Positions 57,167-62,903 of a stretch of 64,000 bases of DNA are shown here, piece by piece. Within the stretch, counting starts at the first letter, position 1. Each line of letters opens with the position of its first letter. Origin of the DNA: Gammaproteobacteria bacterium (lineage in GTDB: Bacteria; Pseudomonadota; Gammaproteobacteria; SZUA-229); the NCBI GenBank assembly GCA_026195255.1, contig JAPHSS010000002.1, forward strand, positions 62,001 to 126,000. Direction: 5' to 3'. The translations under genes were made by a program, and so were the position numbers. Below the pieces are notes generated by a model. It was given only the letters and a program-made list of their open reading frames with translations. It ran no database searches and was not told the DNA's origin.

Positions 57167-59033
57167 TAGTTAAGTTCACCGGTAGTGTATTAATGTCAAT
57201 TAACGTCGGTATGCCACGTATAAACTGAGCTGATAATAGTTCTCTGTGGATACGGTTAAATGGATCAAGGTACAGATTACCCGTTTGACCGGAGAATCGC
57301 TCATAACTTTTACCCTGTAAGCGACCCAGAAATGGAATTAAATTATAGGCATCTACACCGAGTGCAAAAAAACGAGTGTAACGTTGCTGTTCTGGCCAGT
57401 AATTTATAAGTGACTGTTTAGGTTTTGTTGGCGCATTGAGTATCCAGGGCATATCTAAAAAGTTTAGATCATCAATGTCGCGGTCAGCCTGCTTGTTAAG
57501 TTGCCCGGTAAATGCATGTGATGTGGCATATACGGGAATTTCACCTGCATAGTGAAATTTAAATTGAGGTTTTAGTTGCCGGGCATCTTTGGGTGTGGCA
57601 GCCATAAAAATCATGCCCACATCCTGGCGACGGTAGGGGGTGAATTTCATTTTTGTGCGCATAACATTCTGGATGCTGCGGTACCGACTATAACTTTGTT
57701 TTATATTTAACATGTTTTGAATCGGTTTCTTAAAGTCGTTTTTATTGGGAGTATAAGTTTGTGTGCTGACTACTATTCCGCCTAACTCTTCAAAGCGTAA
57801 CTGGAAGGCATTGCGTAAACGTTCACCCCAGGGGCCTTCAGGAACCAGTACCGCAGCGTGAGTGTGTGCTTGTCGAAAGGCCATTTCTGCAGATTGGCGG
57901 GCTTCATCTTCTGGCAGTAGGCCAAACTGAAAAAGTTTTTCGCTAGTTTTAAACTGGGTGCTGGCATAGTTAAGGGTCAGGGTGGGTATATTGATCTCTT
58001 CCGCTCGAGCAAGAATGTCTACAGCTGATTTAAGGAAGGGGCCTATTATAAAGTCAGCTCCCTGGTCAGAGGCTTTTTTATAGTAATTCCAGATTGCGGC
58101 CTGATTATCACTGGTGTCTATAAAGCTAATTTTGGGTTGAAATGATTTGTCCGGGTGTTGATAGTAGGAGGACATGATTCCATCACGAATTGCAGCGGCT
58201 ACCTGAGCATATTTTCCATTTAGGGGAAGGAGTATGGCTATATGTTTTGGTTGTTCAATTAATTCGATTTGTTTGTCACCAAACTCTTTAATAAATATTT
58301 TTGCTGCTGGGTGTTCTGGGTACTCTTTACGCCATGAGTAAATTCCGTCCTGTAGGTGTTGCCAGTCAACCTGACCACGTTTGGCTATTTTCGCTAATTC
58401 GACCCAACCAAGAAAATCGGCATTAAGGGGTGCGCTGCTAAGTTGTTGCAGGCTTGTTTTTGGTAACAGGGAAAGAGCTTCCCATATTGCCTGATGGTTA
58501 AGTTCCTGATCAAACTGATCGGTCAGTAATTTATCCATTTGAACACGCGTTTTAGCTGATTCTAAAGGATAACCGGCATCCAGAAAGGCTCTTGCTCGTA
58601 AGCGCATTAATCGAATTTGCTTTTCTGTTGATAAAATTTTTGAAATATTTAGCAGTTTTAGCGCAAACCGGGCATCACCTCGACTTAACTCAATCTCTGC
58701 TTGCAGTAAATTGTAATCTATTGATTCTTCTCGCCCCAGCAACTCAAGGTTTAAGGATGAAAGTTGCTGCTCGGCCAGATCGAACTGTTTTTGAAGGAGA
58801 AGAATTTCTGCTGCTCTTAATAAGTGTCTGTTTCTATCAGCCCCGCTAGAAAGCGCTGCCAGCTCCATGTATTTGCCCGCTGTTTCAGTGGGATCAAGAA
58901 GTTCAGTTCCGTCTAAAGCTGAAGGATCTATTTGGTCTAATGGCTTATCGGTGATGATGCGGTCTTTTGGCGCACACCCGTAAAAGCTGAGGGCGATGAG
59001 TAAGAGTAAAGTTGTGCGAATAAATAATGTCAT
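57129..59033 (-). CDS. lpoA: Outer-membrane lipoprotein LpoA (penicillin-binding protein activator)
   Basis: 634 residues with a lipobox FYGC (Cys20). TPR-rich N-domain (about 40-250) and a periplasmic-binding-protein-like C-domain (about 260-620, HIAILLPLNGKYAQVAAAIRDGIMSSYY, VLVPEGPWGERLRNAFQLRFEELGG, GMIFMAATPKDARQLKPQFKFHYA). In E. coli it reaches through the wall to stimulate PBP1a. Its 5' end overlaps the rsmI long frame on the other strand; rsmI is transcribed divergently. Confidence 0.94.
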   Translation of the reverse strand: MTLFIRTTLLLLIALSFYGCAPKDRIITDKPLDQIDPSALDGTELLDPTETAGKYMELAALSSGADRNRHLLRAAEILLLQKQFDLAEQQLSSLNLELLGREESIDYNLLQAEIELSRGDARFALKLLNISKILSTEKQIRLMRLRARAFLDAGYPLESAKTRVQMDKLLTDQFDQELNHQAIWEALSLLPKTSLQQLSSAPLNADFLGWVELAKIAKRGQVDWQHLQDGIYSWRKEYPEHPAAKIFIKEFGDKQIELIEQPKHIAILLPLNGKYAQVAAAIRDGIMSSYYQHPDKSFQPKISFIDTSDNQAAIWNYYKKASDQGADFIIGPFLKSAVDILARAEEINIPTLTLNYASTQFKTSEKLFQFGLLPEDEARQSAEMAFRQAHTHAAVLVPEGPWGERLRNAFQLRFEELGGIVVSTQTYTPNKNDFKKPIQNMLNIKQSYSRYRSIQNVMRTKMKFTPYRRQDVGMIFMAATPKDARQLKPQFKFHYAGEIPVYATSHAFTGQLNKQADRDIDDLNFLDMPWILNAPTKPKQSLINYWPEQQRYTRFFALGVDAYNLIPFLGRLQGKSYERFSGQTGNLYLDPFNRIHRELLSAQFIRGIPTLIDINTLPVNLTIDKTQAIQQPIN

Positions 59034-59101
59034 TATCTAATGTGTGTCAGCTGATGTTATTATGGCAAACGAGAGTATCTGTTTTGGAGTCCCAACTGTC
59101 A

Positions 59102-59941
59102 ATGAATCAGGGCACACTTTATGTAATCGCTACCCCAATAGGTAATCGTGCTGATATGGGTGAGCGTGCAATTTCGGTATTAAAACAAGTTGATCTGATT
59201 GCTGCTGAGGACACGCGGCACAGTAAAAATTTAATGCAACATTATAACATTGCTACACCAATGCAGGCTTATCATGAGCATAATGAGGAGCAGGCGACAC
59301 CGAAATTAATACAACGATTGCTTGCAGGTGAGAATATCGCTTTAATTTCTGACGCGGGCACGCCTTTATTAAGTGATCCGGGTTATCGCTTAGTTAAAGC
59401 AGCGCATGAAGCAGCGCTAAAAGTTAGCCCAATACCCGGTGCATGCGCTGCTATAGCGGCGCTTTCTGTATCCGGGCTGGCGACAGATCGATTTATGTTT
59501 GCGGGTTTTCCGCCTCATAAGCAGGGAGCCAGACAAAATTTTTATCGAGAATTTGAGAATCAGTCGGTTACACTGGTATTTTATGAATCTAGTCATCGAA
59601 TCGTCGCATCTGTAAATGATATGCTGCAAATTTTTGGTGAAAATAGACGGGTTGTCCTGGCAAGAGAGATAACGAAGCTATTTGAAACGGTGCATAGCAC
59701 TGAACTAGGTGACTTACTAGAGTGGCTACAGGCAGATTCAAATCAACAGAAAGGTGAGTTTGTACTTGTTGTAGAGGGTGCAGAACAACAGATTAATCCA
59801 CAATCAGCTGAGCTCGGCATGGTATTGAAGGTGCTGCTGGAAGAGTTACCAGTAAAGCAGGCAAGCCAGATGGCTGCTAAAATCACAGGGCAGAAGAAAA
59901 ACCAGGTATATAAACTGGCACTTGAATTGACTGGTAAGTAA
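59102..59941 (+). CDS. rsmI: 16S rRNA (cytidine1402-2'-O)-methyltransferase RsmI
   Basis: Methylates the ribose of C1402 in 16S rRNA with SAM. 279 residues from ATG 59102, matching the usual ~280; the longer frame from 59027 overlaps lpoA. Tetrapyrrole-methylase fold: LYVIATPIGNRADM, AAEDTRHSKNLMQHY, LISDAGTPLLSDPGYRLV, PIPGACAAIAALSVSGL, FAGFPPHKQGAR, and FYESSHRI. In many gammaproteobacteria it is followed directly by rnpB; here three TPR-like genes and a repeat intervene. Confidence 0.95.
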   Translation: MNQGTLYVIATPIGNRADMGERAISVLKQVDLIAAEDTRHSKNLMQHYNIATPMQAYHEHNEEQATPKLIQRLLAGENIALISDAGTPLLSDPGYRLVKAAHEAALKVSPIPGACAAIAALSVSGLATDRFMFAGFPPHKQGARQNFYREFENQSVTLVFYESSHRIVASVNDMLQIFGENRRVVLAREITKLFETVHSTELGDLLEWLQADSNQQKGEFVLVVEGAEQQINPQSAELGMVLKVLLEELPVKQASQMAAKITGQKKNQVYKLALELTGK

Positions 59942-60366: not shown

Positions 60367-60846
60367 ATGGCACCATTACAAGCAGTATATGAAGATTTCA
60401 GTGCATGTTGCGACGAATTTGTTGAGGGTGTTTCTTACCTTAAAGATCGTGCAATGCCTAAAGCGGTTAATCGCTTTCAGCAGGCTTATGAGTCTGTTGG
60501 AAGAGCAGATGTATATCATAATAAGTATGCTTCGTATTGCGGGTTGGCACGGGTTTTATCGGGTGATGCAACGGGTTTAGAAATGTGTCGTCACGCTTCT
60601 AAGGGCGAGTTACATGATGGCGATGTATATTTAAATCTAGCAAGAGCCGAATGGTTTTATGAAAATCGAAAAGCGGCAATTATAGCGCTTAAAAAAGGCC
60701 TGCAAATAGATAACCGTCACCCGGGGTTACGTCAGATGCGTGAACAGTTGGGCATTCGGCAGCGTAGCCCATTACCATTTTTACCTCGTACGCATCCTTT
60801 AAATCATGCGCTGGGTAAACTAATGAGGCATGTAACAGCAGTTTAA
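60367..60846 (+). CDS. TPR-like protein 1 of a tandem trio
   Basis: 159 residues, soluble. CC at 14-15 (VYEDFSACCDEFVEGVSYL), TPR-like helix pairs (AVNRFQQAYESV, KYASYCGLARVLSGDATG, GDVYLNLARAEWFYENRKAAIIALKKGLQID), then HPGLRQMREQLGIRQRSPLPFLPRTHPLNHALGKLMRH. The tail motif LPFLxRxxPLNxxLGKLxR recurs in the next two genes. It resembles an uncharacterised gammaproteobacterial TPR family with a C-terminal RRxPxLPFLxRxNPLNRxLGRLRH; that similarity is from memory. A terminator separates it from gene 2. Confidence 0.8.
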   Translation: MAPLQAVYEDFSACCDEFVEGVSYLKDRAMPKAVNRFQQAYESVGRADVYHNKYASYCGLARVLSGDATGLEMCRHASKGELHDGDVYLNLARAEWFYENRKAAIIALKKGLQIDNRHPGLRQMREQLGIRQRSPLPFLPRTHPLNHALGKLMRHVTAV

Positions 60847-60910
60847 GTGTGGTCAGGTAATTTTGAGCAAAAATATATTTGCAGAAAATAAAGAGTATTA
60901 GCGTGGTTGG

Positions 60911-60940
60911 CCACAGGTGTTTCATCTGTGGTTTTTTTTT
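60911..60940 (+). terminator. Intrinsic terminator after TPR-like gene 1
   Basis: CCACAG (60911-60916) and CTGTGG (60926-60931) stem followed by nine T. Suggests that the three paralogues are not one simple operon. Confidence 0.85.
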
Positions 60941-61004
60941 CAGAATTTTTTACATATCCAGATAGATGGTTGGCGGTGCAGGCCAGCTTAAAAGGGAGGT
61001 TGAT

Positions 61005-61472
61005 TTGAGTATACAAAAAGTTACTTACAAAGATTATAGTCTTTGTTGTCCTGATTTTATTAATGGTATCGAGTTTCTGAAGCGTGGAATGATTTCACAA
61101 GCCCGTCACTGTTTCGAGGTGGCGTACGAGCAAACTACTTATAGGGATATTCATTATAATAAATATGCCTCTTTTTGCGGTTATGCGCGGGCGTTAGCAG
61201 GTGACCGTGGTGGTGTGGCAATCTGTCGTGAAGTAGCTCGTAATGAATTATATGATGGAGATGTTTTTTTTAATCTGGCGAAGTCTGAATGGCACTTTAA
61301 AGATCGTAGACGTACCGTTGATTCATTACTTCATGGTATGGAGGTTGACAATATGCACCCGGGTATGCGTGAATTGAGTGCTAAGTTACGAATGCGTAAA
61401 AAAGCCACTATTGGCTTTTTACCAAGAAATAGTGCGTTAAATAATACATTAGGTAAATTATTTAGAAAATAA
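61005..61472 (+). CDS. TPR-like protein 2 of a tandem trio
   Basis: 155 residues from TTG 61005, which GGGAGG precedes at good spacing; ATG 60966 would add 13 residues with no counterpart in the paralogues. With the TTG start, CC falls at 14-15 exactly as in genes 1 and 3, which supports this choice. Middle HYNKYASFCGYARALAGDRGGVAICREVARNELYDGDVFFNLAKSEWHF; end HPGMRELSAKLRMRKKATIGFLPRNSALNNTLGKLFRK. The most diverged of the three at the tail. Confidence 0.8.
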   Translation: MSIQKVTYKDYSLCCPDFINGIEFLKRGMISQARHCFEVAYEQTTYRDIHYNKYASFCGYARALAGDRGGVAICREVARNELYDGDVFFNLAKSEWHFKDRRRTVDSLLHGMEVDNMHPGMRELSAKLRMRKKATIGFLPRNSALNNTLGKLFRK

Positions 61473-61606
61473 TTTATATGTTGTTTTGGGGGTTTTTATT
61501 AAGTAAATGGTTGATAGATATTGACTGTTTTTTTTTGAGTTTATTTGAGGTTTTATATGTAGCGTTTTAATGCAGACTTGATATTAACAAGAACAAGGAG
61601 GTTGTT

Positions 61607-62080
61607 GTGTCTTATATAAAAGCGGTTTATATGGATTTAAATGAATGCTGTAATGATTTTGTAAAAGGCATTGAATTATTAGAACAAAGCTCGATTCACG
61701 ACGCGAGCAATTTTTTTCAACGTGCCTGTCACTCCGTTTCAGCTGATCACCGGTTTTTCTCCAAGTATCATTCGTATTATGGCTTTTCATGTATATTAAG
61801 TGGCAAATATGAAGCAATTGATTTTTGCCGTCATGCGGTTCAAAAAATGCCCTTTGATGGTGATATCTGCATGAATTTAGCAAGAGCTGAAATTTTTTTA
61901 AATAACCGTCTTGAAGCATTAAGTGTAATTAAGACCGGTTTGCAGTACTCGTCAAATCATGGAGGCCTGCAAAAGTTGCAGTCAAATTTAGGCGTACGTA
62001 AACGAAAGCCTCTGCCATTCCTCTCCAGAAATAATCCGATGAGTATTGCATTAGGTAAGCGCATGCGAAAAATGAGGTGA
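61607..62080 (+). CDS. TPR-like protein 3 of a tandem trio
   Basis: 157 residues from GTG 61607 with AAGGAGG 6 nt upstream. CC at 14-15 (VYMDLNECCNDFVKGIELL), then FSKYHSYYGFSCILSGKYEAIDFCRHAVQKMPFDGDICMNLARAE, and the tail LGVRKRKPLPFLSRNNPMSIALGKRMRKMR. Together with genes 1 and 2 it gives conserved C14C15, CR in CRHA/CREVA, DGD and FLxRN/T. Soluble, no catalytic motif recognised. Confidence 0.8.
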   Translation: MSYIKAVYMDLNECCNDFVKGIELLEQSSIHDASNFFQRACHSVSADHRFFSKYHSYYGFSCILSGKYEAIDFCRHAVQKMPFDGDICMNLARAEIFLNNRLEALSVIKTGLQYSSNHGGLQKLQSNLGVRKRKPLPFLSRNNPMSIALGKRMRKMR

Positions 62081-62141
62081 TGGCTGAGAATAGGTAGTAG
62101 TGGGCATTGTTCAGGGTTCTAAACTGGTAGAGCTTTACGTT

Positions 62142-62318
62142 GTTCAGGCACATCTCCCTCGGGGAAAGGTTGACACTTTTTGGCGCCCTGTCCCCTGTTG
62201 TGATGCCATCAAGAGTATTGCGGAGTCGGTTCACGACACTGCCAGCGCATAGTGGTATGGGTTAAGGGGACAGGGCACAAAAAGCAGTGACCTTTCCCCG
62301 AGGGAGATGTTCCATAGC
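62142..62318 (-). repeat. Nested inverted-repeat element, copy E
   Basis: Left arm GTTCAGGCACATCTCCCTC then GGGGAAAGG; right arm CCTTTCCCCGAGGGAGATGT. Inner GCCCTGTCCCCTGTTGTG against TAAGGGGACAGGGC, and GATGCCATCAAGAG against the altered CATAGTGGTATG side. A stretch TAAACTGGT at 62120 just outside matches the outer end of copy A. Same orientation as A. It ends about 60 bp before the rnpB 5' end, overlapping its promoter region. Confidence 0.88.
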
Positions 62319-62368
62319 AAGGTTCGCTAATGTATATAAGCAAACAATTATTATTCATCAACTTATGT

Positions 62369-62374
62369 TATAAT
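62369..62374 (+). promoter_or_regulatory. -10 box of the rnpB promoter
   Basis: TATAAT seven to eight bases before the predicted 5' end of RNase P RNA (near 62382). A convincing -35 was not found at 17 bp upstream (AATTAT). Confidence 0.55.
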
Positions 62375-62381
62375 TAGCGCC

Positions 62382-62746
62382 GAAGTTGGCTGGGCAATCG
62401 CTGTATGATTTTATCATAGAGAGGAAAGTCCGGGCTCCAAAGGGCAGGGTGCCAGGTAACGCCTGGGGGGTGTAATGCCCACGGCTAGTGCAACAGAAAG
62501 ATACCGCCTCCGCCTACTTTTAGTGGGTTGAGGTAAGGGTGAAATGGTGCGGTAAGAGCGCACCGCGTTTACTGGTAACAGTGACGGCAAGGTAAACCCC
62601 ACCTGGAGCAAGACCAAATAGAGAAGCTGAGGCGCGGCCCGTGCTGCTTCTGGGTAGGTCGCTTGAGGCGCATAGTGATGTGCGTCCTAGATGAATGATT
62701 GTCACGACTTCGGTTGTACAGAACCCGGCTTACAGGCCAACTTCCC
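62382..62746 (+). ncRNA. rnpB: RNase P RNA (bacterial type A)
   Basis: Catalytic RNA of ribonuclease P, which matures tRNA 5' ends. The 5' end GAAGTTGGC pairs with GCCAACTTC at 62736-62744 (helix P1), followed by a short T-run. The conserved CR-I GAGGAAAGTCCGGGC (62420-62434), ACAGAAAGATACCGCC, GGTAAGGGTGAAA, GTGACGGCAAGGTAAACCCC, GACCAAATAG and the CR-V part AGATGAATGATTGTCAC match bacterial type A RNase P RNA. Exact ends are to within a few bases. Confidence 0.95.
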
Positions 62747-62756
62747 TTTTTTTCCG

Positions 62757-62877
62757 CTGCTCGCTCAGCTTACGCCTGACGGGTCGCATGGCTTCGTTGG
62801 GCAATGGACATTTACATTTGTAAACTCACATTGCCCGCCTTGCCCTGCAACCCGTCAGACGCAACCTGAACGAGCGC
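62757..62877. repeat. About 120-bp imperfect palindrome after rnpB
   Basis: The left half runs CTGCTCGCTCAGCTTACGCC, TGACGGGTCGCATGGC, GGGCAATG, CATTTACA; the right half mirrors it as TTTGTAAACTC, CATTGCCC, GCAACCCGTCAGACGC, AACCTGAACGAGCGC. It would fold into one long hairpin. It looks like a mobile-type non-autonomous or REP-like element; no transposase is near. Confidence 0.65.
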
Positions 62878-62903
62878 TCTCCTCCGACGTAACTATACCT
62901 GTG

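Follow-up and report, generated by a model that had tools for sequence, protein, structure and literature searches.

In the window, as we call the whole 64,000-nucleotide stretch of gammaproteobacterial DNA analyzed here, the interval between rsmI and rnpB holds three intact paralogous genes, all on the forward strand (Table 1). A first-pass annotation made from the letters alone had described three TPR-like genes between these two neighbors, and that reading held: the open reading frames (ORFs) are intact, and the downstream RNA gene is matched by Rfam model RF00010. The TTG and GTG starts that it proposed for the second and third genes each have a purine-rich run upstream, and direct reading gives Shine-Dalgarno-like runs at all three starts (GGAG, GGGAGG, and AGGAGG for copies 1, 2, and 3). 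Copy 2 has an alternative start in the same ORF, ATG at 60966, and its GGGAGG lies just 5' of the TTG. The strong terminator noted after the first gene is real in form; terminator-like matches in the region are not more numerous than in shuffles, and the stem and T run of this one are long. Identity to copy 1 in the family alignment is 41 to 43% for copies 2 and 3 and 41 to 47% for copies 2 to 4, the fourth paralogue lying in the same genome, outside the window (G000:C67:111430-111903).

The repeat element that parts copy 3 from rnpB folds far better than shuffled sequences (z of -9), and about 40 sites in the genome hold similar sequences, mostly 75 to 86% identical, which form a MITE-like family. 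It is probably not part of the TPR gene system. Directly after rnpB, at 62755 to 62880, there is a second palindromic-looking stretch (gctcgctcagcttacgcctgacgggt ... acccgtcagacgcaacctgaacgagc), perhaps another repeat element. A gene for a rhodanese-domain protein (PF00581; 63151 to 63798, reverse strand) is found just 3' of rnpB in the window genus, and at locus L154 a rhodanese-domain gene sits between rnpB and mraZ.

Table 1. Features of the region from rsmI to rnpB, in window coordinates
Feature	Position	Strand	Description and evidence
Upstream neighbor, rsmI (16S rRNA methyltransferase gene)	59027-59941	+	Position and synteny; name follows established knowledge
Copy 1, TPR family	60367-60846	+	159 aa, ATG start; ORF reading, alignment, AlphaFold2 model
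Intrinsic terminator-like hairpin with T run, after copy 1	60909-60933	+	11 pairs, 3-nt loop
Copy 2, TPR family	61005-61472	+	155 aa, TTG start
Copy 3, TPR family	61607-62080	+	157 aa, GTG start, AGGAGG upstream; AlphaFold2 model; closest copy to rnpB
Hairpin repeat element between copy 3 and rnpB	62141-62314	.	Fold compared with shuffles; genome copies
Stretch before rnpB with -10-like TATAAT	62360-62381	+	ttatgttataattagcgcc; direct reading
rnpB, class A RNase P RNA	62382-62748	+	Rfam RF00010, 329.9 bits, E 2.7e-107

The three genes belong to an undescribed family in Gammaproteobacteria, whose members are free-standing ORFs, in most cases about 155 to 190 aa long. A single-sequence search found relatives in 35 of 369 genomes of a broad class-level gammaproteobacterial sample; at the profile threshold there were 41, the weakest five of which (28 to 34 bits) resemble ordinary TPR proteins. 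Within the window's own taxonomic family, 39 of 54 genomes have relatives. Carriers thus make up about 10% of the sampled gammaproteobacterial genomes and most have one copy, in agreement with the single-copy relatives in other gammaproteobacteria mentioned in the first-pass annotation. A phylum-wide sample, its make-up mostly not itemized, gave no further match beyond the window genome. A dedicated family is absent from Pfam, NCBIfam, PADLOC, and PHROGs, where the sole matches were weak and to generic TPR models. A defense or phage gene was considered and rejected, as the PADLOC and PHROG profiles gave no match. Truncation of one longer protein into several copies was also rejected, since the relatives are free-standing ORFs and no larger homologue was seen in the searches.

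AlphaFold2 models of copies 1 and 3 (pLDDT 90 and 89) bear out the TPR-like helices of the first-pass annotation. The fold consists of three TPR hairpins (helices 16-26/30-42, 51-64/69-79, and 85-97/101-114, with pLDDT above 90), followed by a cap helix (119-128), 15 linker residues, and a helix at the C terminus (144-157). The unit by which the TPR superfamily is recognized, an antiparallel helix pair of about 34 residues repeated in tandem, is seen in the models; TPR chains in the PDB were found by profile, and the closest PDB fold matches are generic TPR domains, with no Foldseek match passing an E value of 0.001. The window copies do not reach the Pfam TPR gathering scores (at most 17 bits against cut-offs of 23 to 30), and TPR_2, which matches more members than any other model, does so in 14 of the 63 aligned sequences at an E value of 0.001 or less. 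Despite these subthreshold scores, the fold and profile evidence still supports a TPR fold. Across the 63 sequences F37, R131, R141, and G150 are invariant and C74, R75, N90, E95, R101, and N146 nearly so; the two invariant arginines (131 and 141) lie in the linker, and Asn146 and Gly150 in the basic C-terminal helix. The tail of about 38 residues from position 129 is basic in all 63 members, with a net charge of +2 to +14 (median, +7), and the body has a charge of about -1.

The copies are old. In the family tree, each of copies 1, 2, and 3 clusters with its own counterparts from related genera (all three in G401, copies 1 and 3 in g277), which makes the array older than the genus. A recent local duplication was rejected accordingly, the lineages of copies 2 and 3 being older than the split of the window genus from related genera. 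Copy 1 is the most conserved (95 to 97% identical within the genus), and identities between G000 and G137 are 96, 79, and 73% for copies 1, 2, and 3. Where dS could be estimated, dN/dS was 0.02 to 0.06, 0.07 to 0.11, and 0.10 to 0.20, respectively. The family proteins are therefore functional, being under strong purifying selection.

We found that the family is preferentially located directly upstream of rnpB. The two genes share a contig in 54 of the 71 family-bearing genomes sampled, and in all 54 a family gene is upstream of rnpB on the same strand, at a distance of 500 bp or less in 49. The linked pair spans 12 taxonomic families. In some of the 17 genomes counted as unlinked, rnpB was not found or the genes lie at contig ends, so linkage may in truth be more frequent. 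The first-pass annotation had regarded the genes as inserted between rsmI and rnpB, which is right for the window; over the family as a whole, the linkage is to rnpB and recurs beside prmA, pgi, or glgA. The outer neighbors indeed vary, the flanking pairs being rsmI with mraZ/dcw, prmA with mraZ/dcw, prmA with other genes, pgi with miaB, and glgA with miaB or other genes (the names rsmI, mraZ, and dcw follow established knowledge and synteny). On the family tree the minimum number of changes was 6 for the upstream neighbor (29 rows), 5 for the downstream neighbor (30 rows), and 4 for the pair (52 rows), so that per row the pair is steadier than its flanks by only two to three times. A recurrent cluster of small neighboring ORFs (c1), which are antisense ORFs inside rnpB, was a clue to the linkage. 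A search of the literature on rnpB or RNase P with TPR proteins, accessory proteins, gene neighborhood, or promoter, which covered few subscription papers, gave no report of the linkage.

The link is not obligatory, since carriers in five taxonomic families (f36, f63, f99, f105, and f118) have the gene away from rnpB; no other Rfam RNA genes were found near these unlinked copies within the regions fetched. Also away from rnpB are the fourth copies in the window genus and the additional copies of G370 and G416. The neighbor of the fourth copies was first taken for miaB and is, by sequence reading, its relative rimO; this position looks incidental. In five other genomes (G396, G373, G376, G083, and G401) insertions of 1.4 to 7 kb separate the gene from rnpB.

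Genomes without the family show the empty site. Among 60 rnpB loci drawn from genomes known to lack it, which are for that reason not an independent test, rsmI is the nearest upstream gene in about 33, and no weak family homologues were seen. The rsmI-rnpB adjacency expected by the first-pass annotation is thus present in genomes without these genes. In G132, whose genus includes two carriers, rsmI directly precedes rnpB with no family gene between them. Because only about 10% of the sampled genomes carry the gene and G132 does not, RNase P does not need it, and the family gene is dispensable. Of 25 carriers examined for RnpA, 24 have it, among them every one of the 23 of good quality; in the window genome it is a different gene (G000:C5:64416), and a Pfam search found no RnpA (PF00825) match in the window copies. 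Replacement of RnpA by the family was consequently rejected. Some carriers have the order pgi, family gene, rnpB, and miaB; in G309, a member of their taxonomic family, a predicted methyltransferase gene (PF13649; L193, 2886 to 3539, reverse strand) stands in the place of the family gene, and it has an EPDHQFEWDR stretch that we take to resemble Hen1 RNA methyltransferases. The G402 assembly has two rnpB genes, one with a family gene and one without (L152 and L153), possibly through contamination of the assembly.

Many of the linked genes run close to, or into, rnpB. Hexamers resembling the -10-like one of the window were found at 39 of 41 rnpB loci, in most of them about 7 to 9 nt 5' of the RNA gene. 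The distance from the family stop codon to rnpB, measured in 33 pairs, has a median of 48 nt; it is at most 40 nt in 16 pairs and at most 20 nt in 7. The -10 of rnpB is formed by the final codons and the stop (CTG TTA TAT TAG) in L085, L143, and L152, and the genes of G048 and G292 reach their stop codon only within rnpB. In G156 (L140, reverse strand) the gene is cut to its C-terminal 46 codons, the basic tail only, between rsmI and rnpB, and is either a relic or a tail-only protein. As tight pairs leave little space for a terminator, family transcripts probably read into rnpB there; in the window, copy 1 ends in a terminator and the repeat element stands between copy 3 and rnpB.

This overlap raises an explanation for the linkage in which the protein plays no part. 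If the 3' end of the gene holds part of the rnpB promoter, rearrangements separating the two would be selected against, and the function of the protein could be unrelated to RNase P. Such a lock in cis is quite possible, given the -10-like hexamer that rnpB has of its own in most loci, the short distances from stop codon to rnpB, the -10 formed by final codons, the stops inside rnpB, and the survival of the C-terminal codons alone in G156. However, a gene-less close relative has a normal promoter straight after rsmI, insertions of several kilobases are tolerated, many gaps between gene and rnpB exceed 100 nt, and neither the constraint on the whole protein nor that on the distant paralogues is explained. 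Passive inheritance from an ancestral entry upstream of rnpB, with the order kept by vertical descent and occasional losses and relocations, would account for a linked state that is widespread on the tree (about 7 changes, with several unlinked lineages), and the order rsmI-rnpB-mraZ is conserved also in genomes without the family gene. Yet the pair persists where neither outer neighbor is the same (pgi or glgA with miaB; prmA with other genes), which would require gene and rnpB to have moved or stayed together repeatedly; we consider this explanation unlikely. The two are not fully exclusive of each other, and both explain the linkage without a role in RNase P.

As to the protein itself, the first-pass annotation had singled out a double Cys at positions 14 and 15, together with CR and DGD motifs and the tail, and all of these are present in the three window copies. 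The tail is indeed conserved family-wide; the double Cys is found in the window's subclade only (17 and 15 of 63 sequences at the two positions), and it is altered even in close relatives (CT in copy 2 of G417, CS in copy 1 of G400). The suggestion that it binds metal or haem, or serves redox chemistry or dimerization, has lost its ground: a pair limited to one subclade gives no basis for a cofactor role, and in the copy 1 model it lies at the N-terminal edge, ahead of the first helix. The conserved C74 of the CR motif (62 of 63 sequences) is a single Cys inside a TPR helix. Cofactor binding through the double Cys, despite its presence in every window copy, is thus very improbable.

Tentatively, we favor a putative TPR adaptor that would contact RNA and serve RNase P or the processing of tRNA. 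In this reading a partner protein would dock one of its peptides in the TPR groove, RNA would be contacted through the basic tail, and the protein would help RNase P or tRNA 5' processing, in assembly, stability, localization, or tuning, without being essential. Such a role is favored because the mRNA is made beside rnpB and probably often reads into it. The protein would act beside the normal subunit RnpA, whose presence in carriers makes the family an addition and not a replacement. The three window copies may be older, specialized versions, copy 1 forming the conserved core and the other two evolving faster. We counted in favor of an RNase P role the linkage itself across 12 taxonomic families, the maintenance of the pair through changes of neighbors, the constraint, the basic tail, the TPR models, and the presence of RnpA; against it stand a linkage that can be inherited passively, the unlinked families and extra copies, the occurrence in only about 10% of genomes, the absence from G132, the modest steadiness of the pair, and, in the window, the terminator after copy 1 and the repeat element ahead of rnpB. 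The more specific proposal of a candidate lineage-specific RNase P partner, a basic-tailed TPR adaptor encoded in tandem with rnpB or partly overlapping it and forming a three-member set in some genera, is possible but somewhat doubtful.

Among known systems, the TPR superfamily (Pfam TPR_2, TPR_14, TPR_16, and TPR_19; the three-TPR domains of HOP, Sgt2, and SycD/PcrH) likewise has three helical hairpins of TPR fold; a minority of family members match Pfam TPR models weakly, and the best PDB fold matches are TPR proteins. However, HOP, Sgt2, and SycD/PcrH show no match to the linker and the basic C-terminal helix conserved in the family, and the family gene differs from those of known TPR proteins in being free-standing and tied to rnpB. 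LpoA, an activator of penicillin-binding proteins, has a TPR-like N-terminal domain and its gene is next to rsmI here, in the same neighborhood as the family genes; it differs in its length of about 630 aa, and in the regions read for the prmA, pgi, and glgA contexts its gene did not turn up next to the family gene. In the RNase P holoenzyme (RnpB RNA plus RnpA, PF00825), it is the gene of the RNA subunit that the family gene adjoins, and the family protein is not RnpA. Even if the protein proves unrelated to the enzyme, a coding gene that runs through the rnpB promoter into the RNA gene is an unusual overlap with an essential ribozyme gene. We know of no TPR-type RNase P subunit in bacteria, and to our knowledge the enzyme is seen there as a single RNA with a single protein, dedicated extra factors being few or absent; a family found beside rnpB in 12 or more gammaproteobacterial families is a concrete, testable candidate for such a factor.
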